Shown here: piece after piece, positions 39,026 to 60,864 of the stretch
How positions within the stretch are numbered: position 1 is the stretch's first letter
Layout of the letters: every line of letters begins with the position of its first letter
Assembly (NCBI GenBank): GCA_028554795.2
Contig: CM068835.1
Coordinates: forward strand, 29,080,311-29,144,310
Length of the DNA stretch: 64,000 bases
Reading direction: 5' to 3'
From: Sinohyriopsis cumingii
Taxonomy: Eukaryota; Mollusca; Bivalvia; Unionida; Unionidae
Position numbers and translations under genes: made by a program
The notes under the pieces: generated by a model
Told to the model about the DNA's origin: nothing
Databases searched by the model: none
Seen by the model: only the letters and a program-made list of their open reading frames with translations

Positions 39026-39066
39026 TCTCTTTTCGAGAAATATGGCTGGCCCTGAAAAGGGCCTTT
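39026..39066 (-). terminator. Histone-type mRNA 3' end signal in the left TIR
   Basis: On the minus strand: AAAGGCCCTTTTCAGGGCCA, i.e. a 6-bp stem GGCCCT/AGGGCC with loop TTTC (39063-39048), flank AGCCA, then after about 13 bases the purine-rich CTCGAAAAGAGATAG (39036-39026) resembling the U7-binding histone downstream element. It lies 48 bases after the stop codon of the gene at 39467-39111. No AATAAA lies between. Confidence 0.8.
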
Positions 39067-39110
39067 GGGTTTTCTTCTAATTTCTTCTTTTCCTCCACCA
39101 ATTTCTTATT

Positions 39111-39467
39111 TTATCTCCAACACTCTTTCTCTTCTTTTCTTTCTTTTTTTTTCTCCTCCTCTTCTTTCTTCTTCTCTTCCTCCTCTTCTTTCTTCCTCTT
39201 TTCATTTTCTTCCTCTTTTTCAATTTTTTCGTTCCATTTGCGTATTCTTATACTTTCCTCTTCATCCTCCTTCTCCTCCTTTATCTCTTTCATAACGCAA
39301 CTAATCTTGTCCTTTGCTTTTCTTAAGTTATTAATTTCCATCTTTACACGATGGGGACTATAGGAATAATGGTCTTCAACCAGTCTTATTAGCATCTGTT
39401 CCATTATTCCTAAGTTGTCTAAAACGTCTTGCAAGGTTTGTATTTTGTCCATTTGGTTTGACGCCAT
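39111..39467 (-). CDS. Accessory cassette gene 3: short coiled-coil protein, E/K-rich tail
   Basis: 118 residues, start ATG at 39467 in good context (AAGATGGCG). Residues 1-55 look helical without obvious homology, residues 56-115 are a Glu/Lys-rich predicted coiled coil. No known domain. Upstream lie a TATA-like TATAAG (39517-39522) and the shared GCGCGGACGT promoter module; downstream is the TIR stem-loop. It reads outward towards the left end of the element. It resembles the products at 42228-41920 and 43109-42753 in size and layout (short helical head, charged coiled coil); sequence homology among them is uncertain. Confidence 0.6.
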   Translation of the reverse strand: MASNQMDKIQTLQDVLDNLGIMEQMLIRLVEDHYSYSPHRVKMEINNLRKAKDKISCVMKEIKEEKEDEEESIRIRKWNEKIEKEEENEKRKKEEEEEKKKEEEEKKKERKEEKECWR

Positions 39468-39526
39468 CTTCTTTTTATTCTTTGCAGAATGGTTTGAACG
39501 ACGAATACTGTGGGTTCTTATACGAA

Positions 39527-39556
39527 AAGCGCGGACGTGATGGAAAACATCCCCCT
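39527..39556 (-). promoter_or_regulatory. Cassette promoter module, gene 3
   Basis: AAAGCGCGGACGTGATGGAA followed by AACATCCCCC on the plus strand; the TATA-like box follows 5-10 bases downstream on the minus strand. Shared with 41605, 42290 and 43173. Confidence 0.7.
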
Positions 39557-39639
39557 AAAAACATAAAATGTTAGTTAGTTAGTTGGATTATAGTGGTTTT
39601 CGTTCTTTTGAACATGTACCACTTTTTTATTCACGCACT

Positions 39640-39712
39640 GCGTGATTTTTAATTACTCCTGGGGGAAGGAAAAGGAGCCTCATCCCCCAGGCTTTTATGT
39701 ACTCAAAGAGTA
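39640..39712 (-). other. Two perfect hairpins within the insertion
   Basis: CCTGGGGGA ... TCCCCCAGG (39658-39692) and GTACTC-AAA-GAGTAC (39699-39713) are adjacent inverted repeats, followed on the minus strand by CACGCAGTGCGTG. They are unlike the histone-type stem-loops. Possibly part of the 3' UTR of the inserted retroelement. Confidence 0.4.
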
Positions 39713-39894
39713 CTTTTTAATTTAGCCACTCAGGTGTAGGACTAACTAGTCCTTAACAACCTGACTGAAAGGCTAATAGACATGAGTGGGAATAGTCACA
39801 CCACACACTCGTGTTTCTTAGTTGGATTGAAATGCCCCAGGTGTCAAACCAAGCAGTATGTGACTCCCGCCACGATTGGTCGGCAGCGATGACG

Positions 39895-40200
39895 TCACAT
39901 TAGGACACCCGGTCTTGTGGCATTGACGAAGTGGCCCGCTTTTTTGATATCATCAATTGCCTTTCCCAGTCCCATATTCCGGTAGACAGAGCCTTCCTTT
40001 TTTCCACTCTGTTTAGGTGGTGCAGGTTCATCAGCTTCATCGCCGCTGGATGATGATACTTCCAGGGCCGCTGCCAGCGTGGAAGTTTCAAATTCTTCAG
40101 TGTCGTCTGCCAACATTGCCTGGATTTGGCTGAGTATGTTAGTAGAAATAGCTGTGGAAGCTTGATTTAAAAGTTCAGCCAGATGTTGTTTAAGAGACAA
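39895..40200 (-). other. Unassigned ORF inside the insertion
   Basis: An open frame of about 100 codons without an ATG at its head, Ser/Glu/Asp-rich in the middle (SSSSGDEADEPAPP), Gly/Lys/Arg near the end. It begins just downstream of an A-rich tract and reads in the same direction as the RNase H ORF. It may be the truncated tail of another element's ORF. TGACGTCA (39890-39897) overlaps its stop. No recognisable domain. Confidence 0.3.
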
Positions 40201-40378
40201 GGAGACGGTTAGGAGTATTTTTTTTTTTAATTTTTTTTTTTATTCATCAATTCCTTATTTATTTTGATTCCCTATCTTATTGGTTTGGAATGAAAACTTG
40301 TTTTTATGGTTGTTTGTATGTTATTATGGAGTCCTGTTTTAATTAATTCCTATTTTCCTATTTTAATTTTTTGTGGCC

Positions 40379-40590
40379 TTAATTGGTTTTTATTATTCGG
40401 GGTATGAACGGCTGTGTCAGTTTGTGAACCTACGAGACCTAGCAGGCCGTCATAATTCCCAAACAGTGATTTTGTAATATTCGTCCTTAACTGGTTTTTA
40501 TTATTCGGGCTATGAACGGCTGTGTCAGTCTGTGAACCCACGAGACCGAGCCGGCCGTCATAATTCCCAAACAGTGATTTGTTATATTTT
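40379..40590 (-). repeat. Two 107-bp tandem repeats in the retroelement 3' UTR
   Basis: Blocks 40379-40485 and 40486-40590 share TTTTTATTATTCGGG, TATGAACGGCTGTGTCAGT and GGCCGTCATAATTCCCAAAC with few differences. Confidence 0.8.
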
Positions 40591-40613
40591 TAACTGATCT
40601 TTGATTTACTTTC

Positions 40614-41577
40614 TTAGATTTTTTTGAGTAGATTGGATTCGTGTATAAAACTTATGATATTTTTGAATGTTAGATTAATATTGGGGTTTGTGTTCATCAA
40701 GAATTCTGGGTATGTTGTAGGGGATCCAATTTTATGCTGTTTAACTTTAAACTTAGCCCTTTCTTTTTCAAGTGTATGGCAGTTGTTAAAAATATGCTCT
40801 ATGTCTTCTGGGACCCTGCAGTGGTAGCAGTTAGGGTTATGTGGTTGTGGTCCTATGTACTGTCCGAAGCTGTTAGCCAGCTTGGTTTTGCCCGTGAGTA
40901 TTCTATTTATGAATTTTTGTTCACTGCCTTTTGTTTTGGGTGGTTTCCTATTTCTACATACTTCTTTAATGATGGTTTTTAGTTTCCTGCCTTGAGTGCT
41001 TGTGTTCCATAATTCCTGCCATTTATTATCAATGAGGGTTTTAGATATGCTATTGAGTTCGCATATGCTATAATCTAGGTTGATGTGAGTGGTTTCGTTT
41101 AGTTTTTGTTTAGCTGTTATATCTGCCATATCGTTACCTGGTATGTTAATATGGGATGGTATCCACATAAATTCTACTTGTAAGTTATTATTGTTCAGTA
41201 TTTTTAACAATAAATTGGTTTGCCTAAGATAGTTTTCTCTTGATTTGGTGTTGTTATTAAGTATTGAGTTTATGACGCTTAGCGAGTCACTTATTATTAC
41301 CGCTTGGGGTATTTTGTTCTCTTTGATCCATTTGAGTGCTTCAAGTATGGCCCAGAATTCAGCTGTGTATATAGAGCAGAGGTTAGGTAGTCTTCTTCCT
41401 ACTTTAATGTTAAGTTCGGGGATTACGTAAGCTGCTGCTGTTCTGGGTGGTTCTGTAATTTTGGATCCATCAGTGTAAATCTTAATGTAGTTGCAATATT
41501 TTGAGTTGATTTCTTCTGTACAGATTGTGTTTAGTTTGAGTTCCTGTTCGTTTTTATTGCCATATTTCGTAATAATG
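40614..41577 (-). pseudogene. 5'-truncated non-LTR retrotransposon ORF2: RNase H and Cys-His end
   Basis: One open frame of about 320 codons enters from 41577 without a start codon. It reads an RNase H domain: IYTDGSK (first Asp, 41480), TAEFWAILEAL (Glu, about 41370), VIISDS (Asp, 41300) and WIPSHINIPGNDMAD (His and last Asp, about 41150). A C-terminal zinc motif CYHC..H..C follows (about 40800). RNase H after RT in an ORF2 fits the I/Jockey-group non-LTR elements. The frame is intact, so the insertion is young, but the RT and endonuclease parts are missing. Confidence 0.85.
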
Positions 41578-41604
41578 AATCTTACCTAGATGATGACCCA
41601 ACAT

Positions 41605-41631
41605 CGCGCGGACGTGAAGGAAAACATCCCC
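41605..41631 (-). promoter_or_regulatory. Distal cassette promoter module cut off from gene 3
   Basis: CGCGCGGACGTGAAGGAAAA and CATCCCC on the plus strand. On the minus strand it is followed by GGTCATCATCTAG and GTAAGAT, then the insertion. In the intact cassette 2 the same distal copy precedes the proximal one by about 50 bases. Confidence 0.6.
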
Positions 41632-41849
41632 TACTTTCTCATTTAATATAATCAAACCCAAACTATACTCTCCACATACGCTAAGAAACAATAAAGAAAC
41701 CCATAATCTACTATTCACACAAACTTACGTTATCACTTACAAACACAAACACAAACACACAAACACACAAACACATACCCTCACAATATCTTAATAAAGA
41801 GTTAGTGTTTATTTTCACACTACTCTACCTACACACATTGGCAAATCGA

Positions 41850-41894
41850 TAGTTATTTCTTTTCTAGAGTATTGGGTAGCCCTGAAAAGGGCTG
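41850..41894 (-). terminator. Histone-type mRNA 3' end signal, cassette 2
   Basis: Minus strand: ACAGCCCTTTTCAGGGCTAC then CCA; 6-bp stem AGCCCT/AGGGCT, loop TTTC, flank ACCCA (stem-loop 41892-41877). After TACTCT comes AGAAAAGAAATAAC (41865-41850), a histone-downstream-element-like purine tract. It is 28 bases past the stop at 41920. Confidence 0.85.
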
Positions 41895-41919
41895 TTTTTT
41901 GAACTCCTGATGCACCTAT

Positions 41920-42228
41920 CTAATGGTTGCACCGTCCTGGCCTGGCGCCACACACGCATCTTCTTCCCCAGTCTTCTTTCACCTTTCTTCTGGGGAGCGC
42001 AGAGGGAGGATGATTCGCTTCAACACCCCAATCCTCTGTCTCGGGAATATTGAACGACATCCTCTCTTCTCTTTTCTTTTCCTCTTCTTCCCTCTCTCTT
42101 CTCTCCTCCTCTTCCTTCTTTACTCTTGCTTCTTCTACTATAGCCTCCGCTGATAGTTCATTTACTATGCGCCTGGCATATTCCAGGTGCAGCTGGAGTT
42201 CTAACAGTTTCACTATTCTGCTATTCAT
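41920..42228 (-). CDS. Accessory cassette gene 2: short coiled-coil protein with Cys tail
   Basis: First ATG at 42228 gives 102 residues: a helical head (residues 1-40), a Glu/Arg/Lys coiled coil (41-58) and a tail with Pro, Trp and CVCGARPGRCNH. An open extension to 42243 lacks an ATG. A TATA box (AGTATAAATTG, 42291-42281) lies about 55 bases in front and the GCGCGGACGT module just beyond. The mRNA would end at the stem-loop 41892. No known domain. Same cassette architecture as genes 1 and 3. Confidence 0.6.
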   Translation of the reverse strand: MNSRIVKLLELQLHLEYARRIVNELSAEAIVEEARVKKEEEERREREEEEKKREERMSFNIPETEDWGVEANHPPSALPRRKVKEDWGRRCVCGARPGRCNH

Positions 42229-42280
42229 TCTTGTGTTGATCAATCAACAAGGGTAGCTGGACTGCCCAGCGAGTTTCAAT

Positions 42281-42317
42281 TTATACTGAAAGCGCGGACG
42301 TAATGGAAAACATCCCA
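42281..42317 (-). promoter_or_regulatory. Cassette 2 promoter: TATA box and GCGCGGACGT module
   Basis: Plus strand AAAGCGCGGACGTAATGGAA and AACATCCC; minus strand TATA box TATAAATTG at 42290-42282. A second, degenerate module (GCGCGGACC) lies at 42370-42388, and between them the minus strand has CTAG followed by GTAAGAT, a good splice-donor match. Confidence 0.65.
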
Positions 42318-42678
42318 TAAAAACATAAAATTCATCTTACCTAGATCATGACCAAAAAACAACAACAACGCGCGGACCTAAAAGAAACACTCACTCACTT
42401 TTTTATGCTACCCATCACTATTGTAAAAAGTTTTTATAAATCACTTCAATAGACTATTTACATATGCAAAGCAATCCAATCTAACCCCAAATTTACACCT
42501 CAAACAGCCCAAAAAAAAACAAACATCATTTTAATCTACTATCCACACCAACCTACTTTATCACTTACAAACACAAACACAAACAAACAAACACACAAAC
42601 ACATACCCTCACATTTTTTTAAAAAAGAGTTAGTGTTTATTTTCACACCACTCTACCTACACACATTGGCAAATTGAT

Positions 42679-42723
42679 CGTTATTTCTTTTCTAGAGTAT
42701 TGGGTAGCCCTGAAAAGGGCTGT
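42679..42723 (-). terminator. Histone-type mRNA 3' end signal, cassette 1
   Basis: Same stem AGCCCT/AGGGCT, TTTC loop and ACCCA flank (42721-42706) followed by AGAAAAGAAATAAC (42694-42681). It is about 30 bases after the stop at 42753. The region upstream of both cassettes 1 and 2 (41700-41880, 42560-42720) is duplicated, including CACAAACACA runs. Confidence 0.85.
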
Positions 42724-42752
42724 TTTTTTGTTTTTTGCTATGGCATTCTTTT

Positions 42753-43109
42753 TTAGTTTCTAAGAATGCGATGTCCTCTGAGGATAGACTTTCTGGCGAT
42801 AGGTCTGCTTCTTCGGAAAGAGAAGAAGAACTCTTTGGTGTCGATACGACAATCGACAAAGCCTCTGTCAGCTTCAGGTTGTTGCTGCTGTTGTTGTTGC
42901 TGCTGTTGCTGCTGTCTCTGAAGTCTGTACTTCTCTGTCCATTCTTCTTTCTCCCTGTTCATTTCTTCTCTGAAGAGCTCTTCTATCAGGTCTTCAGTGA
43001 TTTTTAACATTCTCACATTCTCTATTTCTTCTGGCTTCGGTATCAGACTGTGTCTGACCCTATGCAAATTCACGTAGGCTTCGTTGAGCTTAGCTAGTTT
43101 GGAGCACAT
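42753..43109 (-). CDS. Accessory cassette gene 1: polyglutamine coiled-coil protein
   Basis: Using the ATG at 43109 the product has 118 residues: a helical head, an acidic/basic coiled coil (about 45-65), a run of about 13 Gln encoded by mixed CAG/CAA (42915-42877), then a basic Arg-rich end. The frame is open to a TTG at 43133, but no ATG lies upstream. The upstream GCGCGGACGT module is at 43173-43200 and the histone-type signal follows the stop. Function unknown. Confidence 0.55.
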   Translation of the reverse strand: MCSKLAKLNEAYVNLHRVRHSLIPKPEEIENVRMLKITEDLIEELFREEMNREKEEWTEKYRLQRQQQQQQQQQQQQPEADRGFVDCRIDTKEFFFSFRRSRPIARKSILRGHRILRN

Positions 43110-43172
43110 CTTCGTAGGAAGATGAGTCGACAATGGATGGTTAGACTGGGAACAACCCGGTTCTTAAAGTCA

Positions 43173-43200
43173 AAGCGCGGACGTGAAGGAAAACATCCCC
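43173..43200 (-). promoter_or_regulatory. Cassette 1 promoter module
   Basis: AAGCGCGGACGTGAAGGAAA and ACATCCCC on the plus strand, 64 bases upstream of the ATG at 43109. Its TATA-like box is weak (TTTAAG, about 43163). Confidence 0.6.
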
Positions 43201-43318
43201 CACACGGTTTTCGAGCCGCAACGTTCATGAGAGGGATAGTAAGAAATGAAAGAGCATCAATCCAACATTCTTATAGCTAAACAAAAGACAAAGGCATTTT
43301 TTTCTAAACACAACATTT

Positions 43319-43324
43319 TTTATT
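43319..43324 (-). terminator. Poly(A) signal AATAAA of the late-gene cluster
   Basis: AATAAA on the minus strand about 116 bases past the protease end. It shows that core genes use ordinary polyadenylation, unlike the neighbouring cassettes. The stretch 43201-43439 is otherwise AT-rich and empty. Confidence 0.5.
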
Positions 43325-43439
43325 CAAAAATCACTTAACACTAAACAACAACATTTCTAACATTTTTTAACAATAATCCAATACTATAACATCAAACAAT
43401 CTTTTTCAAATCACAAACATTTTTTTCTCAATGGACAAT

Positions 43440-44000
43440 CTACTTTAAACAGGGCTGACAACGTTGTGAATGAAATTGTGATTTCCACTGTTGGAAATCA
43501 TTAGGCCATTGATGGACACTACGTTTCCTAGCTTGAGACAAAAGATAAGCATAATGGTCACAAAACCATCGATCTACTTTCACATCATTTCTAGCAGAAG
43601 AACGAGGATCGAAATGAGTCACTAAATGTTCTAAGGAATAGCCCAGGCTGCGATGATGCAGAAAATACACACAATATTATCCACACACCAAGGAATCTGT
43701 GCCTTGTAATTTCACGTTATTGAATCGGGTGGTTTGAGCATTTCTTCTCATAAAGTCGATGATATCGTCTTCCAAAGGGGGCAATCCGTACGAATCGAAA
43801 TATTCCACACATCCTTCTTGAGGAAAGTAGACGGCTACCCAGTGGGTTCCTGGGAGATGACTGTCGTCCGTGTTGATCACGTAAGCTTGATGGTCTTTAG
43901 GTTTGCGATGAGGGAGTTCATCTTTAGCACAGACGACAGGATTCCAAGAAGCCGTATACGAACTGTGGTTCAAAAGGTAATAAAGTTCCCAGGTATCCAT
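43440..44000 (-). pseudogene. PRO: Adenain-like cysteine protease with one premature stop
   Basis: From the ATG at 44000 the frame reads MDTWELYYLL, the catalytic His in GTHWVAVYF, the acidic residue in EYFDSYG and the catalytic Cys in DSLVCG. TAA at 43679-43677 follows immediately; the same frame then continues YCVYFLHHRSL to 43440. Family members have a Gln at this place as a rule, so one base change explains the stop. In adenoviruses and Polintons this protease matures capsid proteins. The stop removes the last third, including the helix after the catalytic Cys, so activity is doubtful. An alternative is stop readthrough or an assembly error. Confidence 0.85.
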
Positions 44001-44029
44001 TGATTTGTGTGTGTTTTTTTTCTTCTTCT

Positions 44030-44518
44030 TCACAGGTAATAATAAGTCGTCAATTCGATCCTGACTTTTTGCTTGAAAATGTCTGACGAATAAACGGTTA
44101 TTCGTTCTGTTTCCTCACTCTGATTCAGGAGAGCTTCGATACGATGGATCTCTTGAGTGGTTAATGGTGGACAAGAATGTTCACGCAAGTCTTTATACCA
44201 CTGGTGCAACACGTCTTTGTTTGAGATGAGACTCCAAGCTTCGTCCAGATACTCGTCCAATTTTTCTTCTTGCCTCAACATCAGGCATTTATCGTGTTGA
44301 ATTTGACTGGGATGATCGTTTTGACATCCATAGCAATTTTTCTTGATCAATTCCGTCATTTTTTCCACCAAGTGTTTGGCAAAACAGGAGACTAAATGGG
44401 CTTCTTGTTCTGGCCATCTCGACTTCATCATGATTACTTCTTCTTCTTTTTCCACGGTCTCCTCACATTTCATCTCCAAAGTTTCTCCACTAGGTAAAGA
44501 GGGATAACAGTCTTCCAT
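44030..44518 (-). CDS. Conserved Polinton Cys/His small protein (HPSQ type)
   Basis: 162 residues, ATG at 44518, acidic N-terminus, then a Cys/His cluster in KKNCYGCQNDHPSQIQHDKC (residues about 60-79) that may bind zinc, then a helical acidic part. I recognise this pattern as a common small ORF beside the MCP in animal Polintons, but no function is known to me. It lies 6 bases past the MCP stop and 30 bases before the protease ATG, so it belongs to the late virion block. Confidence 0.6.
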   Translation of the reverse strand: MEDCYPSLPSGETLEMKCEETVEKEEEVIMMKSRWPEQEAHLVSCFAKHLVEKMTELIKKNCYGCQNDHPSQIQHDKCLMLRQEEKLDEYLDEAWSLISNKDVLHQWYKDLREHSCPPLTTQEIHRIEALLNQSEETERITVYSSDIFKQKVRIELTTYYYL

Positions 44519-44523
44519 GGCTT

Positions 44524-45836
44524 CTAGTAATCTAGAATGACTTCTCTCAAACTGTTGATTTCTATCGTATTATCGAATTCTGCATACAGGAGGACGTTTA
44601 CCGTCTCTGGTAGAGCATTAGTAAACTGAAGTTCCACACGAATCTGGCCTGATTTTATAGGGTGGAAATGTCCCTCGTCGCTGCCTTGGTCTGGAGTGAA
44701 ATCGAAAGCCCACAAAGCATAGCCTCCTGCATAATTGTCGTACGTAATGCCGTGACTGGTGTTGGTCCCTAACTGTCCCGTGGCTTCGTACAGGGACAAG
44801 TACGATCTCAAATAATTATTTGCACCAAAGTTAGGCTCGAAAGGTCGGGTACACAAGGTCTTGCCATCGCGACTGACTTCGATCTTTGACACATTGTAAT
44901 GTTGAAACTCAAAAGGATTTTCGTTGTAGGCTCCGTTGAAGGCTGAATTCTTGACGATACCAACAATCAAACGTTTGGGTAACTGTCCTTGGAACAGATG
45001 ATCTTCGATCATGGATCGCTGTCCAGTGGGAATGGTGAAGGTTTTCACTTCTACACGTCGGATGGGATATTTGGCAGTCGTTCTACTCAACGTCTGACTG
45101 ATGTCGTTCCCACTTTAGGTAACACTTCCACACGACGCACGTAAAGTCTGGCTTCTTGGATGATGGTTTTGTAAGTGGCATCATGAGCAGCTATCAAATG
45201 GAAAGCGGCATTGCTGCGATTCAGTCTCAGGCGGATATCTACCCCGTTCAGCAAATACTTTTCTTGCAACCACATGTCCAAATGCAAACGATCCATCAGT
45301 TCTAAACTACGACTTAGATGAATTTTCTTTCGTCGTTCTACAAATCCCGTTGGATTTGAAGCATCCCCAGCAAGTGTAATACCGTTGAACTTAGTCGCCT
45401 GGTCAGGTTTCCATACCACGCAAGCATCCAGATGAGTGTTCTTGGCTTCTTTTCCGTACGTCAAAAGATTTTCCAGGTAGGCTCGGTAAGGGTAAGTATC
45501 CATGCTGCTGCTGACTAGTTTGTTATTCAAGTACAAGTCCACTTCGCTAAACAAGGAATGCATGAAATTGTTGACGGGAGCTACTGCTTCATCATCGTCT
45601 AGGATAGTGTTGGGTGGTTCGATCACTTTCACTTTCAAGTACAAGTAACAGCTATTCAGATCAATGTAATCTTCGGGCTGTCCTTTGATTTCAAACTCGA
45701 TGGGAGCGGAATCGGTCAATGAGGAGACGGGATGAAATTCCACCCACTGGGATTCTTGCATGGTCATCATGGTGGGGAGCATGGCAACCATATCCAGTTC
45801 CGTCTTGGAACAAGCGCAAGACTCTCGGTGCATCAT
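44524..45836 (-). pseudogene. MCP: Major capsid protein (double jelly-roll), one frameshift
   Basis: The first frame starts at ATG 45836 and codes for 249 residues (VEFHPVSSLTDSAPIEFEI, later LFSEVDLYLNNKLVSSS). It stops at 45087 after a frame change; the second frame, without an ATG of its own, gives the C-terminal 188 residues to 44524 (AKYPIRRVEVKTF, later YALWAFDFTPD). Together they have the length and motif order of the Polinton hexon-like MCP, the double jelly-roll protein of the icosahedral shell. The shift maps near the C-run 45109-45111. Both parts are otherwise clean, which suggests a very recent mutation or a sequencing error. Confidence 0.9.
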
Positions 45837-45852
45837 TTTTTGTTGCTGTGTC

Positions 45853-46269
45853 TCAATAATCGAAAACGTCTAAGTCTCGAACGGTTCTTCTTTTCTTGGC
45901 CTTTCTAGCTTGAAGTCTGGTGAAAGGGTGTTTTCTTCGTCGTCTCTTTCTGCCTTGTCCTTGCTGAATGCCTGATTCGGTAGCGTGCAGGGCATTTATA
46001 GGTGTGTCTCGGCGACCCAAAATGTCTTTGCCCGTTTGCAGCAAGACGTTTTTGCCTGCCCTCATGAAGGCTTCTTTAGGGTTTTGTTTGTCGGTGATGA
46101 CATTTTGGAGAAATTCTTTACCTTGTGTCAGTGCCGCATCTTTCAAGGCGTGCAATCCGCGTGTCACCATCGGTTTCAACACCGGGGCCACCGAACGAAA
46201 GGCCGATTTTAACATATCTCCTAAACCGTGTCCTCGCTGTCGAGCCACCCCTCGGTACACTGGATACAT
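45853..46269 (-). CDS. Adenovirus pVI-like minor virion protein
   Basis: 138 residues, ATG at 46269. The N-terminus carries an amphipathic glycine-containing helix (GHGLGDMLKSAFRSVAPVL), as in pVI-like membrane-lytic proteins, and the C-terminal third is highly basic (RKRRRRKHPF), a nuclear-localisation or DNA-binding tail. It sits between penton and MCP, the usual place. Assignment is by position and composition; homology to pVI is weak. Confidence 0.6.
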   Translation of the reverse strand: MYPVYRGVARQRGHGLGDMLKSAFRSVAPVLKPMVTRGLHALKDAALTQGKEFLQNVITDKQNPKEAFMRAGKNVLLQTGKDILGRRDTPINALHATESGIQQGQGRKRRRRKHPFTRLQARKAKKRRTVRDLDVFDY

Positions 46270-46276
46270 GACTTAC

Positions 46277-47212
46277 TTACGAGTCGTGAGAAAACCGTTT
46301 TCGAAAATGGAGTTTCACCGTGACTTTTCCTTTGGTGAATGGAATATTTTGTCCCAAATCTCCTTTTATAGTAATGTTGACCGTGTCCAAATACGACTTG
46401 CTGACAGGCAAATAGTGAGGATGGACAAATTCGCGGTGGACGTTGTAAGTGTTTCCACCTTCCTCGTCAGCGTTTGCGGCAGAATCCACTTTGAAAGGAA
46501 TGACACGCAGTAACGGTACGGAGGTGTGTCCCACCACGTTGTATTCCACCACATCGGAGTACACGAACATCAAATTCAGTCCTTGGTTCAGTTCTACCGG
46601 GGTACGAAAATACTTGGCAAAAGAATCGTTGTCAGAAATGACTAGTAATTCGCCTTTTTGTTGTTCTACTTTCTTCCTCAGCTCCATGTCACCGCCCAAC
46701 ATGTCAAACAATTCAGGACAAAATAAGAAAGACATGATTTTGGGCCCCTCAGGAAATTTTATCAGGAAGCGACGAGCTGTTTTGTGGTACTCCAGGGTGA
46801 CACTTTTTTTGACACTTTCCAAAGCTTTCAGAAACACACCATTAAACCTGGTGGCTATGGTGTTGACCAAATGTTGACCACTAAAATAATAACCTGGGGG
46901 AATGAACAAGTGATAGGTGACCCACTTTAGATTTGGTGTACGGGTTTTCTTGTCATATTTGCTATGGGTATCCAAGTACTGTTGCATTTGTTCGTCATGA
47001 ACTTCCACATCAAATTTATTTTGATTGGGAAGGACATTGAGGACTTGGGTCGGGTGAATCATTTCTACCAAAGCCACTTCCCAATGGGCTTCGTGATCTA
47101 CGGGGATGGCTTGAGGTAATTTGGCCGTGTAACAGCACAACGTGTTATTGGGAAACACCTCCATGGAACTGTCACTGGGTAAGGTCAAGTAAAATTGGTT
47201 TTCGTGACTCAT
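46277..47212 (-). CDS. Penton-like minor capsid protein
   Basis: 311 residues, intact, ATG at 47212. The opening FYLTLPSDSSMEVFPNN and the WEVALVEM block about residue 44 are typical of the Polinton/adintovirus penton (single jelly-roll) protein, which closes the fivefold vertices. The stop is 7 bases before the pVI-like ATG. It overlaps the upstream membrane-protein gene by 4 bases. Confidence 0.8.
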   Translation of the reverse strand: MSHENQFYLTLPSDSSMEVFPNNTLCCYTAKLPQAIPVDHEAHWEVALVEMIHPTQVLNVLPNQNKFDVEVHDEQMQQYLDTHSKYDKKTRTPNLKWVTYHLFIPPGYYFSGQHLVNTIATRFNGVFLKALESVKKSVTLEYHKTARRFLIKFPEGPKIMSFLFCPELFDMLGGDMELRKKVEQQKGELLVISDNDSFAKYFRTPVELNQGLNLMFVYSDVVEYNVVGHTSVPLLRVIPFKVDSAANADEEGGNTYNVHREFVHPHYLPVSKSYLDTVNITIKGDLGQNIPFTKGKVTVKLHFRKRFSHDS

Positions 47213-47616: not shown

Positions 47617-47621
47617 GATGG

Positions 47622-48734: not shown

Positions 48735-48746
48735 TTTGTTAGTGTG

Positions 48747-49447: not shown

Positions 49448-49496
49448 GGGGTTGTCAGGGGTCGATTCTGAGATTTTGGGACTTCCGAGGGCCTTT

Positions 49497-49883: not shown

Positions 49884-49943
49884 CTTTGAGTCTTCAGGAG
49901 CACCGAAAAAAACACTGATACCCTACTGGGTCACAGGCCTTTT

Positions 49944-50942: not shown

Positions 50943-50951
50943 AGATTTTTT

Positions 50952-51695: not shown

Positions 51696-51742
51696 GGTTT
51701 GAGAAATGTCACTTGTGACACGAAAAACAAACAAGACAAGAG

Positions 51743-51771
51743 TTTATATACTTTTTCAGAACACGTTTATT
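51743..51771 (-). promoter_or_regulatory. Poly(A) signal followed directly by the ATPase TATA box
   Basis: Minus strand AATAAA (51771-51766) ends the upstream ORF set and GTATATAAAC (51752-51743) starts the ATPase unit. Confidence 0.7.
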
Positions 51772-51784
51772 GAATGTTTTTTTA

Positions 51785-52973: not shown

Positions 52974-53208
52974 AAGTATATACACTGTTTTTGGAATCGC
53001 TGGGTGGTGGCCAATAGCCTCGTTTAACTTTGTGCCTAATGTAATATCCACTCATAATCAGTCTTCTTGTACTTTGGAACATAGCATAATTTAAAAACGA
53101 ATGAATCACTTTGAGTTTGCGTTTCACTTGTATTTTGATCAGTTCTCGGTAAATGCGTTCTCTCAACTCCACAGGCAAAGCACGAATGTTCTCTAGCAAA
53201 GTATCCAT
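52974..53208 (-). pseudogene. F-box-like paralogue 2, truncated
   Basis: ATG at 53208. The first 31 residues are nearly identical to paralogue 1, including ALPVELRERIYREL, then RKLKVIHSFLNYAMFQ diverges and the frame runs into the start region of paralogue 3 (open to 52882). About two thirds of the gene are missing. A partial tandem copy made by unequal recombination is the simplest reading. Confidence 0.6.
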
Positions 53209-53220
53209 GAATAGGTCATA

Positions 53221-53676
53221 CTAAATCCTCTTCGGTCTGACACAAGAAATGTACTCTTTGCACAAACATGGTTTTAATTCATTGTCGAATCTAAATCGTT
53301 TCACCACTAATCTACACATTACAATTCGTTCAGAAGTTTCCTCTTTCACCAAGTTGACATTGTGTTCAAGATGTTGGTAATTCGTTAACTCTTCCTCTGG
53401 AATTCGATGCAGTACGTTTACAATGTAGTAGATAGAATCGTCCATACCAAACCATTCCTTTTTATAACCAGGAAGTCGTTGATCAATGTCTGTCCAATGG
53501 AACACTTTCAACTCAATCAGTCCTTGTATAGCCTGAAGGTACCAGTGGTTCAAACACCGGTGACGTAACGGATGCAATTGTTCTTTACGTTTCACTTGTA
53601 TTTTGACCAGCTCTCGGTAAATGCGTTCTCTCAACTCCACAGGCAAAGCACGAATGTTCTCTTGTAAAGTATCCAT
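53221..53676 (-). CDS. F-box-like paralogue 1
   Basis: 151 residues, ATG at 53676: MDTLQENIRALPVELRERI opens an F-box-like motif, then LHPLRHRCLNHWYLQAI, a charged middle, and a Cys/Arg-rich end. It shares N-terminus, LRH..NHWYL block and NYQHL block with paralogue 3. The three copies are in tandem with short A/T-rich gaps. F-box assignment rests on the LP..LR..IY..L pattern only. Confidence 0.55.
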   Translation of the reverse strand: MDTLQENIRALPVELRERIYRELVKIQVKRKEQLHPLRHRCLNHWYLQAIQGLIELKVFHWTDIDQRLPGYKKEWFGMDDSIYYIVNVLHRIPEEELTNYQHLEHNVNLVKEETSERIVMCRLVVKRFRFDNELKPCLCKEYISCVRPKRI

Positions 53677-53704
53677 GAACAGATTATTATGGTAAGAAGT
53701 TACT

Positions 53705-54447
53705 TCAATGTCTCGGTCCCACTAAGGGTAAGTAATGACAATTCGGTGACCATCGAGCATGTTCAACGTAGGCCGAATCTTGCGGTTCCCAGTGGTGAAG
53801 TGACACACCGCAACTGAAGCACTTGACTTTATCTCCTTCGCCCAAGTAGAAAAATCCGGCTCTGGCTAATTCTTCGGGGTCGGTCCTCCCAGATACTTAG
53901 GCCATTTTCCTTTGAACGATTGAAGACGATTTTCAAAGTCGCAGTATTCCGACAAACGCACAGGAAACGAATATTCGTTTTTCACAGGTTCGTTTCGATG
54001 AGGGTTGGGTGACAGGAACAGGAGTTTGCTCAGGGCTGGATGACATCCGTAGGGAGGTAAACGTGAAGGTGAACATTCCCCTTTAAAACGAAACCCAGTA
54101 AAATGTCCAAGAGGACGAGCGGCATCACTTTCGCATCCCTCAGGTTTGACACGCACAGCATCACTTTCCATGATAGGGGTAGGGACACTAAAGTTCCCAT
54201 GATGCTTTACGGCATCGTTCAGGTCACAACGTACAGCATCGGTCCCATCGCAAGGCTCACAATCGCACTCGTCTGCAAACTCCGTTACGCAATTACAATG
54301 GTAACCACATGGACAATCGTAGTTTCCTTCCGGACATTTTCCGTCGCAATGCATGGGTCTTATCCATCCAGTATTAGTCACACTAGAGGAAGATACAACT
54401 TTTTTACAATCCCCAAACTGGAACGATGCCTCTTTCAAAGTATTCAT
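53705..54447 (-). pseudogene. BIR-domain (IAP-like) protein with Cys-rich N-terminus, one frameshift
   Basis: ATG at 54447. Residues 30-80 are a Cys-rich repeat region (GNYDCPCGYHCNC, CDCEPCDGT). Residues about 155-193 read the first half of a BIR fold (CDFENRLQSFKGKWP). The frame changes in the four-C run 53879-53876, and the second half is read to the stop 53707-53705: AGFFYLGEGD, zinc ligands CFSC, H in VEHARW and C in SPNC. The CxxC-H-C spacing is that of a BIR zinc domain. Viral IAPs block caspases; the same role is inferred. The shift may be real or an assembly error; no RING domain follows. Confidence 0.75.
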
Positions 54448-54492
54448 CTTGTTCGCTCGGTCTTGGTAGTCACAATGAACTATCGATCTTGC

Positions 54493-57400
54493 CTAGGGTT
54501 CCTTTTTTATATACAGACCAATACCGACGTGACCGTACGGCAACGTAAAGTGATTGGGAAGTCGAACTCGCTTCTGGTACACGATTTGATAGACTTTTTC
54601 CAAGGGTCGACTGACGATGTGGTGAGTGGGTAAACGTACAATCTTGTTCGGTTGATAGGTGGTCACTTTAAAGTTTCCATCCTCTCCCGATTGCAAGGCT
54701 TCTTTCAATACCCCAAAGTTGACCACTCGACTGGTACGATAATTCAGAGTCAGTCCTTTCACTTTGCACGTCGTGTGCACTTCTCCTTGTTTGTCACGGT
54801 ATTCGTAGCCGTAATTTTTAGGACCGCCACTGACGAAACTTAGAATCTTGTCGTCGGGATGCTCGTCTGTCCAGGCTCCTAAACGGTCTCCTTCGATGTC
54901 AGGGTGATGTTGAATCGGGTGATGAATGTAAATGCAACTGTCCGTGTCAAAGTACAGGACGCGTTCCCCTAACAGTTCTAAAGCTTCGTACAATTTTAAG
55001 CGAGCATGAGCTGTCACGTAAGCCGCAATGATGACATTTCCAAAAGGGTCGTCTTGTACAAAGTCCAGATCTTCTTCGTAATTGACCAAGATCAAATTCT
55101 CTCGAACGACGTCCACGTGTTTCATGTATTTGGTTTTGTCGTGAATCATCTGGAAGTAGCGGGAAGGTTCTGTCAAATATTCCGTCTTGGGTAAACACGG
55201 TCGTTGTGCCATTTTACCCCACAAGCAATTTAACATCACTTTGGCAAACGATCGCCTGCCTTCGTTTTTCTCGATGTGGTCTAAAGTGATGCCTTCTTGT
55301 TCGTAGTATTTCTCTTTGAATTGTATTTGGTCTTCGGGAGTGTGACACCAGGAAGGATAGCCGCTAGCTTCTTGTTTCAGTTTCAAAAAGGCATCCACGT
55401 AGTCAGCGAAAATGCCTTTCTGACTGGGGTCACCCTTGTGGTATTGTTGTGTCTTGGGAAAGTGGCAAATTTCGTACACTTCTAACAGTCGGTATCCCAT
55501 GTCCAGAGCTTTGAACAATTCTACGCTGACCCAGGTTCCCGTCAAGGCCCGTTCTTCCTGGCTGTGATGGCAAGGTTGGTCTTGGTTGCACGTTTCGGCA
55601 CAAGTACGGCACAAGGGAAACATCAGTTTGCCTTGACAATGGTGAGATAAGACGGGATGGTATAGGTTCGTGGGAGGCAAAACTTTACACTTGATCAAGC
55701 CTTCGTATTGTCGAATGTTTTTCAGGTCGATGTGTTCCGTCAGCAATCGCGGGTGCCCTACAGGAAAGCGACAATATTTGCACACGTAGGGATACAGCGA
55801 ACACACGTCCAAGTATTTGATTTCTTCTCCTTTCTCTTCGTCGGCTTGGTACAGCAAACAGGTGGCATTGGTCCTTCCTCCGTACAAACTATCCCTCGGG
55901 TTCAGCGGGTCCATGAACTGGTAACTTTCCACGAGGCGTTTAAACTCGGGATCGGTTTTCATACGGTGATCGTACTCGTGTTCCCACATTTCCACCACTT
56001 GGTATCCTTGCTGTTCTAACTTTAGGCGTCGCTGACAAGTGTCCTGGTACAAGTCTTCCATGGTTCGTTGCAAAAACTGATTTTTAGTGCCACGGTCAGG
56101 GTAACAAACAGGACATCCGTGAAATAAGCAACCGTTAAACTCGTACACGATCTTGGGGTTTTCTAAGTCCCAGCCATCGACCGAATACGTTCCGATGGTC
56201 TTTTCGCCCCCTCCGTTGCGGGCATGCTGAATCCACTTGTCTTCCTTGTCGCACAAGTAATGTAACCAACGTAGGGCTTTGACCGAGTATTGACGTTTGA
56301 CAAAGTGGGTCGTTTGAGGACTGATGACAGCCACGGTCTTTTCAGGCATGAATCGTTTTCGATACACTAAGGAACACGCTTTGGCAATGGTGCAAGCTTC
56401 TTTCAAAGGATCGACCCCTCCGTGTTCCATGAACAGTTCTCGAAATTTTCCACAGCAACGTCGTAAAATGTCCACGTCGGAACGACAATACTTTAACATT
56501 TCTTCCTGAAAGTCGAAATTGTCAGAGGCATGAGCCTGGTAACAAGCGTAGAAATCTTCTCGTTGTTCGGTACGCATGTTGTCGGGGTCGTAATAGTGAG
56601 CCTCAGGTAAATGGGGTAGAACGGCATGTTGATTGGCTTCCGTATTGAAAAAGTGTGGAAAGTACCCTTTAGCCATTTCTGTCATTCCAAACGTTTTAGG
56701 CATTCGACTCAAAGGCATGGCCAAGTAACTCATCGAATCTTTAAACTGCACTTGTCCCACTTGCATGAAAATGATTTTGGCTCCGTTCAAAGTGACTTTA
56801 GGACGTTCGGTGCCTTGTTCCGTATAGTATCTGAGAAGAAACTGTCCATCGTATCCGGAGAAATTGTGAGCTATCACCGTGGCATGACGATGACAATCTC
56901 CGTAAAGTTCGATGTCCTCTTGGCTCCATGTCTTGTCGATGGGGTCTAAGACCCATTGGGCAAAATCGTCTAGCGTCTTTGGTCCTCTTAAGATTTTTTC
57001 ACGCCCTCCAGGAATTTTGCTGCAGTGAGGGCAATAACTGAAGATAGGTTCTTGAATACACTTCTCGCACGCTCGATGAGCCACGCAGAAATTAGGAATG
57101 TGAATGCCAGTCTCTTGCATGCATTCGAAATCGAAAAAGATGAAATTGCCTTTCTTCTTGTGACCGTCCTCTTTCTCTGGTGGGGGTTGGTATGTAACAT
57201 TCGTGTTCCAAGTCCACGATGTGGTGACAAATGTGACATTTTTTCTTTCCTGAACATACGTGTGCCTTAGTACTATTGGTACGTATGACTTGTCCACACG
57301 CGGGGCACAATCTCAGCAGTTGACAAGCGCATTTCTTCTGTGAACCTTGCGTATTCAAATGTTGTTGGTAACAGGTAGGGCTGACAAACGTGCGCAGACA

Positions 57401-58534
57401 AGTCGAACAAGGCACTGGTTCTTCGCTCAGACAGGGTGGAGAGGCCAAACATCCTGAGCATTTCCATCCACAATGTTTGTGTTGCTCTCGATTATTATAA
57501 CCATAGTCACATTTCTCACAATAATAAGCATATCCCAGGAATCCAGTGATACTGGTAATGGTATCGAAATGTTCATCGTGATGATAAAGGTGAATGTATT
57601 TTCCGTCCTTAAAATGTTGGCCTCGAAACAATAGAGGCCCGCGCATTTCTTGAGGGTGCACTTTCAAGGTGTATCGTGGAGCTAGGACATCTTGCAATTT
57701 TTGCACCTCGGGAATGCCACAGGGTGTGTCTTTGGGCAGTCCGGCTTGTTGTAACAGAAGTTCTGCTTCGTTTCGTTGTTTGGCTCGGTCGGAACGTTGA
57801 ATAGTGTTCCAGGTTCTTTTCCATTCTACCGTGTCGTTCTTGTTGGCATAGGTTCGTCCCACCACGATGGCACGGGCTAAACACATCTGGTCATGGGGGT
57901 TGTTTATTCGGACGAGACTCGTTTTGGTGTTGCGAAGGTCGTCCACCAATAACATCTTTTTGCGTCCTGTCCCTTGAGGAGGAGAGACGTGGGTCATGTC
58001 CAGTGTGGCTTTACCATCGGTGATGTCAAACTGATCATTAGATTGTTGTACGTGTTGAATCTTGTCCATGACTTTGGAAGCAGTCAATTCTGCAGGGGTG
58101 CTAAACTCGATCCAAACAGGGGATTTCAAACCGTCGTGTTGTATGGAAAGTCTCAAGCGATCGTCTTCTTTGGGTTGACATTGTCGCTTGAGTGCAGTGA
58201 GCAAAGAATCCCACACCTCAGTGATGAACACTTCTGCTTTCTCTAACGGTACTTCAGCCTTGAAATCTTTAAACTTCACTGTGTATTTGTAAGCCGTGGT
58301 TCTAAATTTTCTAGAGGAGCGCTTTTCCGTCTCTCGAATGGAATAGTAGTTTTCAGGGTTGACTAAGGGTGGTGAACTTGGTTTAGAGGGTTCGGATTCT
58401 GGTTCACTCATGTCCTCTTCAAAATCACTGGCATGAATTTGTGCCAAGATTTTAGCCCTGGTTCGAGGCGATAGATCACGTTTCTGCCTCTTACTTTCTT
58501 CTTCTTTCTTCTCGAATGAATGGGATCGTTTCAT
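54493..58534 (-). pseudogene. POLB: Protein-primed-type DNA polymerase B, one frameshift
   Basis: Two frames form one protein of about 1,350 residues. The first (ATG 58534) has an acidic/basic head and, from residue 330 on, an array of CxxC zinc fingers. The frame changes in the five-C run at 57186-57182. In the second frame (numbering from 57297): Exo I FFDFEC (54-59), Exo II HNFSGYD (144-150), Exo III YCRSDVDI (270-277), an inserted NGCLFHGCPVCYP nuclease-like motif (388-400), Pol A DVCSLYP (497-503), Pol B KVMLNCLWGK (686-695), Pol C FDTDS (783-787). All catalytic motifs are kept. It replicates the element. Frame break: mutation, programmed shift or error. Confidence 0.92.
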
Positions 58535-58668
58535 CTTGAAAGCAAAAAGTCAAATGACTCAAGTTCAAACACCATGAGCTACTTTATAGTCATGGCAGAC
58601 CAGCGTATATAAAAGGGTGTGTGTCTTATCCTTTCACTATTCATTTCACTCTCAAGCCGAGTACAACG
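58535..58668. promoter_or_regulatory. Compact bidirectional promoter of PolB and zinc-knuckle gene
   Basis: Minus-strand TATA ACTATAAAGTAG (58590-58579) points to PolB, 45 bases before its ATG. Plus-strand TATA GTATATAAAAGG (58604-58615) points right, 54 bases before the ATG at 58669. The two boxes are about 14 bases apart, which should couple or alternate the two transcripts. Confidence 0.75.
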
Positions 58669-59142
58669 ATGGAAGAGACTAACCAGATGGAACGTTTCGT
58701 CAGAGCTTTGAGAGGGGTCATTATAAAATTCTCTTCAGACCAGCCTACGGACTACTCTCCTTCCTTTCGAGATAAAAGTCAAGATACTTGCTATATCTGT
58801 CAGAAGAAAGGGCATTGGTCTTCAGAGTGTCCAGACCGTCAAAAAAGAACAAAAACAGGGACTAAAAAAGACAAAAGTCAAGATACCTGTTATTATTGTA
58901 AAGAAAAAGGACATTGGTCTCCAGATTGCCCAAAAAAGAAACAAGAGGAGTCAGAAGAAAAGAAGGATTCTTCAGAAGAAGAGAGGGATTCTTCGGAAGA
59001 AGAGAGGGATTCTTCAGAGGAAGAAGAGGAAGAAAAAAGACAATTCTATTTACAAGAGGCAAAGAAACAGGAGAAGAAGAAAAGAAGAAGTGAAGAAAAT
59101 GAGGAAAAGACGGTGAAGAAATTCAAAAAACAGAGAGACTAA
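58669..59142 (+). CDS. Double zinc-knuckle (CCHC) nucleic-acid-binding protein
   Basis: The open frame begins at 58621 but the first ATG is at 58669, giving 157 residues. Two CCHC knuckles, CYICQKKGHWSSEC and CYYCKEKGHWSPDC, occupy about residues 37-51 and 70-84. Then three KKDSSEEE/RDSSEEE repeats, which look like casein kinase II sites, and a Lys/Glu-rich coiled coil. CCHC knuckles bind single-stranded nucleic acid, so a chaperone role at replication or packaging is possible. It is the only core-side gene on the plus strand, divergent from PolB. AATAAA at 59229-59234 is its likely poly(A) signal. Confidence 0.75.
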   Translation: MEETNQMERFVRALRGVIIKFSSDQPTDYSPSFRDKSQDTCYICQKKGHWSSECPDRQKRTKTGTKKDKSQDTCYYCKEKGHWSPDCPKKKQEESEEKKDSSEEERDSSEEERDSSEEEEEEKRQFYLQEAKKQEKKKRRSEENEEKTVKKFKKQRD

Positions 59143-59381
59143 ACAAGGAGAAAGAAGAAGTCAATGAACTTTTTATTAAAGTGTTGTGTTGTGAATTGTG
59201 AATTGGATTGTAAAAAATGGAGAAAAGAATAAATGAATGATATAAGGTAAGTGTCTTTGAGTTTTGATTTTAAAATAAGAACGTACACTCACGCACTCAT
59301 ACAAAGACACGTACTATAAAGGTAAAATGGGTGGGTTATTTTTTTTTTTTTTTTTTTGAGTTATTGGCAAATTGAAATTGT

Positions 59382-59422
59382 ATTTCTTTTCGAGAAATGT
59401 GGGTGGCCCTGAAAAGGGCCTT
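59382..59422 (-). terminator. Histone-type mRNA 3' end signal, right accessory gene
   Basis: Minus strand: AAAGGCCCTTTTCAGGGCCA then CCCA; stem GGCCCT/AGGGCC, loop TTTC (59420-59405), the full ACCCA flank, and CTCGAAAAGAAATAC (59394-59380) as downstream element. It is 30 bases past the stop at 59451. The following ATTTCAATTTGCCAA also matches the TIR and cassette copies. Confidence 0.85.
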
Positions 59423-59450
59423 TTTTTCTCTTTATGATGTAGGGGTGAGT

Positions 59451-60029
59451 TTAAGCAATCAACTTTAACTGCCTTATGCCTTTACCACGGCCAAGGCCTA
59501 CTTCTGGACTGCGTAATGTTGATGATGATGATGATAATGATTGGGTTGAAATCACTAAGGGTGGTACGGTAGGCTTAGTCACAGGGTTGACGTGTTTAGC
59601 TCGGGAAGGTCGTATTCTCTTCGGTCGTGATAAAGAAGTCTGATACATTTGTTTCAGACTTCTTAACTCCGCTAAAATGTCCAACAGTACCGTGACCGTT
59701 TGATTTTCACCCTCTTGTTTCTTTGCTGCTACTTCTTCTTGCTGTTGTTTTTTTCTTACCTCTTCTTCTTGTTGCTGTTGCTGTAGGAGAAAAGCCTGTT
59801 CCGCTTCCTTTTGTCGTTGTATAAATTTCTCCAATTCTTCTTTCTGTCTCTGTCTAAAATTCTCCACTTGCGGTAATGAAGAAGGTAACGAAGGTTCCGG
59901 AACAAATTCTTGCGAGGAGAGAAAATCCACAAAATCTCAATTCACCTCTTCTGAAAGTAAGTCCGAGTTCCCTTGGGCAGTCTCCCCTGCTGGTGCACCC
60001 CACTGGATCGTTTTCTGAGTTTCCGTCAT
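59451..60029 (-). pseudogene. Gln-rich coiled-coil accessory protein with in-frame TGA
   Basis: From ATG 60029 the frame gives 30 residues (MTETQKTIQWGAPAGE...), then TGA at 59939-59937, then continues in the same frame with DFVDFLSSQEFVPEP for 159 further residues. The downstream part has no ATG in its head (it opens at a GTG). Residues after the stop form a Gln/Glu coiled coil (RQRQKEELEKFIQRQKEAEQ) and a basic Ser-rich tail. Either a nonsense mutation, stop readthrough or a missed small intron. The upstream CRE-like site 60091 and TATTTAG may be its promoter. It ends in a histone-type signal. Confidence 0.5.
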
Positions 60030-60090
60030 GTTGAATCACTGTCGCATAGATTGACTGCACACAAGCGCTAGCGAATCTAAATAGACTACG

Positions 60091-60098
60091 TGACGTCA
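60091..60098. promoter_or_regulatory. CRE palindrome TGACGTCA between divergent right-end genes
   Basis: A perfect ATF/CREB-type site lies between the minus gene starting at 60029 and the plus gene starting at 60249. A plus-strand TATA box (CTATAAATAAG, 60197-60207) is 42 bases before the plus ATG. Confidence 0.55.
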
Positions 60099-60248
60099 CA
60101 GACTGCTCTCTTCGGATTGGATGCGAGCTGACTGAATTCTGTAACGCGTGTTCGGATTAGTAAATGAACTCGATCCGTTTCAATCCTTTCTGTCCCTATA
60201 AATAAGCGCAGTTCACTGCATTGATTCACCTATTCTCGGAGCCTCAAC

Positions 60249-60479
60249 ATGTGGACCGACGTTGAATCTTCAACCCTTGTGTCAACAATGATGTTCAGGA
60301 CGGACATGCTCATGTATGTCCGATCCAAGTGGACCGTTGTCCACAGGACCAACAGCAGTCTGTGGATAAGAAGAGTCTATATAGAGAGACAAGGTTGCCT
60401 CAAGAGGACTCTGATGTATGGCCCTGCTGTAAGACGAAGTTTGAGGAAAAGAAGATGTCGCAAATGCCCTTTATGTTAA
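60249..60479 (+). CDS. Small Arg-rich accessory protein reading into the right TIR
   Basis: 76 residues, ATG at 60249 after a good TATA box (60199). Hydrophobic/polar head, then VYIERQGCLKRTLMYG and a very basic end RRSLRKRRCRKCPLC with two to four Cys. No recognised domain. Twenty-two bases past the stop the TIR histone-type signal begins. It is the mirror image of cassette gene 3: both terminal genes read outward and end in the same TIR-encoded signal. Confidence 0.55.
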   Translation: MWTDVESSTLVSTMMFRTDMLMYVRSKWTVVHRTNSSLWIRRVYIERQGCLKRTLMYGPAVRRSLRKRRCRKCPLC

Positions 60480-60496
60480 GGGCATATTAACATAAA

Positions 60497-60864
60497 CCAA
60501 AGGCCCTTTTCAGGGCCAGCCATATATCTCGAAAAGAGATAGCCTTTCAATTGCCTACCCCTTTTTTTTAAAAAATTTTTAAAAAAAAAAAATCCCATGT
60601 TCCATTCCCTTTGTCCCTAAACAAGTCCAAACTCTATTCCCCATGTTAAATTCCCCTTGTACGTAGATTGTCCCACGATTTATTCCCATGTTAAATTCCC
60701 CTTGTACGTAGATTGTCCCACGATTTATTCCCATGTTAAATTCCCCTTGTACGTAGATTGACCCACGATTTTTCGCCATGTTAAATTTCCATTGTACGTA
60801 GATTGTCCCAAGGGGTTCTGTAATGCTAATTCCCATTGTACGTAGGGTGCCCCCATTCACTACT
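60497..60864 (-). repeat. Right terminal inverted repeat of the Polinton
   Basis: Inverted copy of 38700-39068, including five 45-bp units and the stem-loop. The frame of 93 codons at 60860-60579 is a by-product of the 45-bp periodicity. Confidence 0.95.
60500..60541 (+). terminator. Histone-type mRNA 3' end signal in the right TIR
   Basis: AAAGGCCCTTTTCAGGGCCA with stem-loop 60502-60517, AGCCA flank and CTCGAAAAGAGATAG at 60528-60542. It follows the stop codon of the gene 60249-60479 by 22 bases. A second small hairpin (GCCCTT-TATGTT-AAGGGC, 60468-60485) spans that stop codon. Confidence 0.8.

Follow-up and report, generated by a model that had tools for sequence, protein, structure and literature searches.

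The 64,000-nt window analysed here (Sinohyriopsis cumingii, contig CM068835.1, positions 29,080,311 to 29,144,310; coordinates below are those of the window) contains a Polinton/Maverick DNA element of 22,165 bp (38700..60864), identified by its inverted repeats, its ends and its target site duplication together with Pfam matches to polB, integrase and ATPase. Five small accessory genes, here called A to E, sit at both ends of this element and each of them ends in the stem-loop and downstream purine element of a replication-dependent histone gene. Three of them, A to C, also carry upstream a promoter box that is found at histone genes of the host. This arrangement suggests that the element borrows the S-phase histone machinery of its host to time its own genes.

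Five accessory genes with histone-type 3' ends

Gene A (39111..39467, minus strand) encodes a glutamate- and lysine-rich protein of 118 amino acids (aa) that has no Pfam match over the cut-off and is likely to form a coiled coil; genes B (41920..42228) and C (42753..43109), both on the minus strand, encode 102 and 118 aa. The open part of gene D lies at 59451..59930 on the minus strand. Its start in other copies corresponds to position 60029, and the copy in the window has an in-frame stop 30 codons past that start. Gene E (60249..60479, plus strand) encodes an arginine-rich protein of 76 aa with C-terminal cysteines, which is under purifying selection (see below).

Histone-type 3' ends had been claimed for these five genes in a first-pass annotation of the window, and all five are present, as judged by inspection of the sequence and by Rfam. 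The positions given there are off by one base at most: the second stem-loop starts at 41893 and not at 41892. The stem-loop GGCCCT-TTTC-AGGGCC ends genes A (39048..39063, minus strand), D (59405..59420, minus strand) and E (60502..60517, plus strand), with the purine element CTCGAAAAGA at 39028..39037 and 59385..59394 (both minus strand) and at 60528..60537 (plus strand), respectively. Genes B and C end in AGCCCT-TTTC-AGGGCT (41878..41893 and 42706..42721, minus strand) with the purine element CTAGAAAAGA (41858..41867 and 42686..42695, minus strand). At every site the stem is 6 bp long, the loop is TTTC and the flank reads ACCCA or AGCCA. The distance from stop codon to stem is 47, 26, 31, 30 and 22 nt for genes A to E, inside the range of 22–48 nt that had been proposed, and neither AATAAA nor ATTAAA lies between stop and stem at any of the five, which agrees with the earlier claim that AATAAA is absent. 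The purine tract, expected about 13 bases on, begins with GAAAAG exactly 13 nt past the stem in all five cases.

The covariance model Rfam RF00032 (Histone3, gathering cut-off 34 bits) matched the sites in the window; the 16-nt stem-loops fit this histone family model over the cut-off at three of the five (59381-59425 on the minus strand, 41.2 bits for gene D; 39023-39068 on the minus strand and 60497-60542 on the plus strand, 35.6 bits each for genes A and E) and below it at two (41853-41898 and 42681-42726, minus strand, genes B and C, 31.0 bits each, E=6.4e-5). It should be noted that the stem-loops at 39063 and 60502 lie inside the terminal inverted repeats and are therefore partly one sequence seen twice. 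The element has five such palindromic stem-loops, whereas 200 sequences of equal length simulated by a first-order Markov model had 0.0 on average. A stricter pattern, GGCCCTTTTNAGGGCCN{8,18}AAAAGA, had four matches in a contig collection of ~257 Gb, all in records titled as bacterial metagenome-assembled genomes (MAGs), and these were taken as chance.

The histone genes of the host served as reference. A PF00125 search revealed large tandem histone arrays in the host genome (150 scored matches), and in one histone repeat (a 10-kb piece, L061) the H2B, H2A, H1, H3 and H4 genes all have the stem-loop (5/5), with GAAAAG beginning 13, 14, 14, 13 and 13 nt past the stem, respectively. The downstream purine element, the histone downstream element, is thus placed at +13 in 5/5 sites of the window and at 13–14 in 5/5 host sites. 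As the host 3' ends match those of the element in stem, loop, purine element and spacing, the signals carried by the element are those of its host. Host histone stem-loops score up to 39.4 bits with RF00032. Among named proteins the host H1 comes nearest to Mytilus coruscus (68% over 38% of the query), followed by oysters, and its 97% match is to an unnamed protein, which fits a host that is probably a bivalve. A histone H1 protein (P0142) is filed under a Sedimenticola MAG and is probably animal DNA in a bacterial bin.

A promoter box common to the element and host histone genes

A second signal, absent from the first-pass annotation and new in this analysis, lies upstream of genes A, B and C. 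Each has a 23-nt box, GATGTTTTCC-N4-CGTCCGCGC, followed by a TATA-like sequence. Counted from the start of the box, gene A (GATGTTTTCCATCACGTCCGCGC, 39529..39551, minus strand) has TATA at +29 and its ATG at +84, gene B (42292..42314, minus strand) has TATA at +29 and its ATG at +86, and gene C (43175..43197, minus strand) has TTTAAG at +29 and its ATG at +88. A distal copy of the box (41606..41628, minus strand) is split from gene A by an insertion of ~2 kb; in seven other copies the tandem boxes are 66–69 nt apart. The insertion between the tandem boxes of gene A (39600-41600) contains part of an open reading frame (ORF; 40614-41168, minus strand) that we read as RNase H-like, Pfam giving no match. 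Within the 64 kb of the window ACGTCCGC was found at four places, always on the minus strand and only in the boxes of A, B and C and the distal box.

Three stretches of the element were compared with the host histone repeat. The gene A box together with its next base is identical to the host H2B promoter at 24/24 positions (E=2.9e-8 in a comparison with small word size), and the gene A box region matches the host H1 promoter at 25/26. The gene B box is identical at 20/20 positions, in reverse orientation, to a stretch upstream of host H2A, and a second promoter motif (42367..42387, minus strand) is identical at 21/21 to the stretch 60–80 nt upstream of the host H4 ATG. The sharing of this box with host histone genes offers independent support for a histone-type interpretation of the element genes. 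ACGTCCGC resembles the HINFP/MIZF consensus, TAACGTCCGC. According to PMC5706932, HiNF-P is needed to bring NPAT to H4 promoters.

Among the copies of the element the gene A box is conserved above its surroundings, with 4/230 letters varying compared with 89/927 elsewhere upstream (p=1.7e-5, 10 sequences). This strict test covered genes A and B, four gene B loci being dropped as too short. A looser promoter alignment (A, B and C with n=18, 13 and 12; p=2e-9, 0.44 and 2e-11) was discarded as it included loci without the gene. A degenerate box with four substitutions is present outside the element at 12652 on the minus strand, perhaps as a remnant of another copy.

Copies of the element and conservation of its signals

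The loci scored by RF00032 show how common these elements are. In the 2.9-Gb host genome there are at least 75 scored matches, a lower bound because the scan produced 589,472 first-look candidates. All 70 loci examined of these 75 have either a tblastn match (E 1e-3) to one of genes A–E or a match to the terminal repeat. No host histone site was recognised among the 70, though such sites reach 39.4 bits; as this exceeds the scores of the six weakest of the 75 (34.5–36.5 bits), it is no proof that host sites are rarer.

In 61/67 sites from loci L001–L030 and the window, (G/A)AAAAG stands at +13. As loci were found by an intact stem-loop the selecting position is biased, and second, unselected sites were therefore analysed apart, counting changes from the window sequence in L001–L030 and taking adjoining noncoding DNA as the flank. 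At such sites the stem-loop is conserved above the flanks for genes B, D and E. For gene D (13 sites) changes affected 5/208 letters of the stem-loop, 1/129 of the purine element and 153/1043 of the flank (Fisher 3.7e-8 and 1.3e-7); the counts for gene B (12 sites) were 6/192, 5/120 and 108/1021 (6e-4 and 0.023) and those for gene E (four sites) 0/64, 1/40 and 29/327 (0.0075 and 0.23), with 101/307 third codon positions of gene E changed. Gene A has one unselected site, at which 0/16 stem-loop and 0/10 purine letters differ. The purine element is thus kept above the flanks clearly at D and weakly at B.

Compensatory changes in the stem had been suggested as a check, and two pairs indeed differ at both positions and still pair: genes B and C have A-U in place of G-C, and host H1 has U-A in place of C-G. 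In an alignment of element and host sites (10 sequences, 8 distinct) 100% of stem cells are paired and 7/500 shuffles score as high; four of the six pairs are invariant and each change occurs in one distinct row, so the support from paired changes is weak. Locus L013 has two stem-loops of the gene E type in the same orientation ~1.2 kb apart, which suggests a duplicated or nested element end.

Proteins of the accessory genes and their neighbours

None of the five genes appears to code for a histone. Pfam gave no histone family for A, B, C and E up to E=1, nor for the open part of gene D, or again gene C, at 0.001; for this reason we rejected the idea that an entire histone gene of the host had been captured. 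The gene E protein, which has no Pfam family and whose single homologue is a metagenome protein (P0121), is strongly constrained, with a median non-synonymous divergence (dN) of 0.110, synonymous divergence (dS) of 1.014 and dN/dS of 0.109 (16 open frames including the window; 110/120 pairs usable). Gene D is under weaker constraint than E (dN/dS 0.485; 12 open frames, 55/66 pairs usable); it encodes 183–193 aa in 10 of the 12 open copies and 132 and 143 aa in the remaining two. In L004, L015 and L017 other ORFs stand in front of the left stem-loop in place of gene A, with box and stem-loop kept, so that the cassette of box and stem-loop seems to exchange its ORF.

Other genes of the element end differently. 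A zinc-knuckle gene (58669..59142, plus strand), convergent with gene D, lacks a stem-loop and has AATAAA at 59228, 85 nt past its stop codon; this AATAAA is kept, as judged by eye, in 6/9 other copies with that 3' end (L009, L018 and L030 differ). Neither stem-loop nor AATAAA was found within 500 nt of the stop codons of polB, integrase and ATPase. As these core genes show no histone signal over that distance, the element seems to express its genes in two different modes.

The element and its core genes

The Polinton begins and ends with AGTAGT...ACTACT (AGTAGTGAATGGG...CCCATTCACTACT) and is bounded by a target site duplication, ATTGTT, at 38694..38699 and 60865..60870. Its terminal inverted repeats (38700..39076 and 60489..60864), which hold the stem-loops of genes A and E in their inner parts, comprise, by self-comparison, a 285-nt stretch of 100% identity and a 104-nt stretch of 89%. 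Shifted repeats point to a tandem array of a ~45-nt unit within them (38735-38924 and 60640-60829). All three core genes that define the class were recognised by Pfam on the minus strand: a DNA polymerase B (54493..57297, DNA_pol_B_2, 5.1e-41), an integrase with chromodomain (47622..48734, rve and Chromo) and an A32-like packaging ATPase (50952..51734, Pox_A32, 1.5e-7). An ORF at 43677-44000 on the minus strand resembles, by eye and by its motif, an adenovirus-like protease, Pfam giving no protease match, and no capsid gene was confirmed by Pfam, ORFs of 249, 311 and 332 aa having no confident match there. The (AGT)2 termini, terminal inverted repeats and 6-bp duplication all found here are those described for Mavericks in a vertebrate study (PMC8097293). 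Relatives of the integrase are present in Saccostrea, Ostrea and Branchiostoma. A viral collection yielded no relatives with the integrase alone as query, 23 pattern matches of which none was confirmed with an integrase alignment, and 0, 0 and 0 matches with three stem-loop patterns.

Discussion

Judged from sequence, we consider it probable, at roughly 85%, that transcription and processing of the accessory genes follow the pattern of replication-dependent histone genes, giving SLBP-bound, U7-processed, poly(A)-minus messages tuned to S phase. The analysis supports the interpretation offered in the first-pass annotation, and the most economical reading is that host histone factors would handle the transcripts of the element too. 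Transcription of genes A to C would start from the box and TATA-like sequence that the host uses at its histone genes. The transcripts of A to E would end in the histone stem-loop with a U7-type purine element 13 nt on, in which CUCGAAAAGA/CUAGAAAAGA are candidate pairing partners of the U7 small nuclear RNA (snRNA). Host SLBP and the U7 small nuclear ribonucleoprotein would then cleave behind the CA that follows the stem-loop by a few bases, and the resulting poly(A)-minus mRNAs would be produced, exported and retained chiefly during S phase. The likely gain is that the genes would be expressed at a time when the host has replication factors and nucleotides available. What we infer, from the signals and from their agreement with the host genes, is the binding, the cleavage, the missing poly(A) tail and the S-phase timing.

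Several observations weigh against this interpretation. Variation in the gene B box (4/138 compared with 37/574 elsewhere upstream, six sequences) is not significantly reduced (p=0.15); a box with at most one substitution was found at 21 of the 70 loci, many of which, being 2–3 kb pieces, stop short of A–C; and genes D and E have no box, nothing in their shared upstream region having matched the host histone repeat. Where the site was the one that selected the locus (7 sites for gene A, 3 for D and 14 for E), changes in the purine element (9/70, 5/30 and 20/140 letters) are no less frequent than in the flanks, and the purine element after gene E is altered in L002 and L003. As the copies are related and come from one genome the Fisher p-values overstate the evidence, and elements that have lost every stem-loop are absent from the conservation sample. 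An Rfam search for U7 snRNA gave three matches, none over the cut-off, and these were rejected as none is U7-like by eye. Finally, genes B and C have AATAAA 80 nt downstream from the start of the stem-loop, so that poly(A) ends are possible there.

This last point is the basis for a tentative alternative, which we hold to be possible and distinctly less probable than purely histone-type ends: the genes might have dual 3' ends, using the stem-loop in S phase and the downstream AATAAA at other times to give poly(A)-plus mRNA, as some host histone genes do. Two modes of 3' processing are described for human H2AC18 (PMC9756948). The other genes speak against it, since gene A has neither AATAAA nor ATTAAA within 600 nt of the stem-loop, the sole signal of gene E is an ATTAAA at 450 nt, outside the element, and the AATAAA of gene D is 243 nt away. 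In 16 sites of the B/C type, moreover, the majority letters at the corresponding stretch are ATATAAAC and not AATAAA.

Two further explanations would remove the RNA signal or its function altogether. The hairpins could serve the terminal repeats as structures in DNA or in replication, and two of the five do lie in the inner part of these repeats. This is very improbable, as the other three are found elsewhere, just past an ORF and on its sense strand, the loop and flanks fit the Rfam histone model, and the purine element, which is no part of a hairpin, is separately conserved at the unselected D sites; the explanation was rejected on these grounds. Equally hard to sustain is the notion that the signals are relics, that is, pieces of host histone genes captured with their promoters and 3' ends and drifting without function. 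Some of 25 comparisons do show a resemblance between the stretches past the purine element and host H2A or H2B 3' flanks. The score was reached by few of 500 shuffles for D-H2B (1), C-H2A (5), D-H2A (7), A-H2A (14) and D-H4 (16) and by at least 49 shuffles for the other 20, values that are uncorrected for 25 tests. Relics would not be expected to keep the stem-loop while noncoding flank and third codon positions change, nor to include a gene such as E, whose median dS of 1.0 is combined with so low a dN/dS, nor to retain box and stem-loop around exchanged ORFs as in the three loci described above, and for these reasons this explanation too was rejected. That the RNAs act mainly as decoys, upsetting the histone supply of the host by titrating its SLBP or U7, would suit the many copies per genome with high-scoring stem-loops, and is most unlikely given that the RNAs carry ORFs and that the gene E protein is under purifying selection.

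Histone-type transcription and processing may be part of a more complete histone programme, towards which we lean only slightly. In this scheme the box would be read by a factor plausibly of the HINFP/NPAT type and would recruit the accessory genes to the histone locus body, SLBP and U7 would process the transcripts, and cassettes, each with a box, an ORF, a stem-loop and a purine element, would be shuffled at the ends of the element and refilled with new ORFs.

In the usual textbook account, the histone 3' end of metazoans is the sole exception to poly(A) tails and a property of histone genes. If the histone-type interpretation is correct, the accessory genes would be a natural non-histone client of SLBP/U7 and of the histone-gene transcription machinery, and would provide a concrete mechanism that couples an animal Polinton to host S phase. 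Transcripts of the element could then escape poly(A)-selected RNA-seq, and the copies would form an independent sequence set from which U7 and the histone promoter factors of molluscs could be worked out. We found no description of histone-type 3' ends in Polintons in the open-access literature, subscription journals and bioRxiv lying largely outside this search, and titles and the beginnings of abstracts in that literature revealed no viral or transposon genes ending in a histone stem-loop.

Comparison with known systems

The element differs from the Polintons/Mavericks described so far, adintoviruses included, in that its accessory genes carry histone-type promoter and 3' signals, of which there is no mention in the part of PMC8097293 that was accessible. 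It resembles metazoan replication-dependent histone genes in its 16-nt stem-loop, short 3' untranslated region, purine element ~13 nt on and short ORFs, and the histone genes of its own host in the box that genes A to C have in common with H2B, H1 and, in reverse, H2A. Genes A to E differ from histone genes in belonging to no Pfam histone family and in being located in a mobile element and not in a histone cluster. Giant viruses with a hairpin polyadenylation signal of the mimivirus type also mark the 3' ends of their mRNAs with a hairpin; these mRNAs are polyadenylated, and viral enzymes are responsible. The element is like them in having a hairpin at the 3' end of its genes and unlike them in that its signal is the host's own histone signal.

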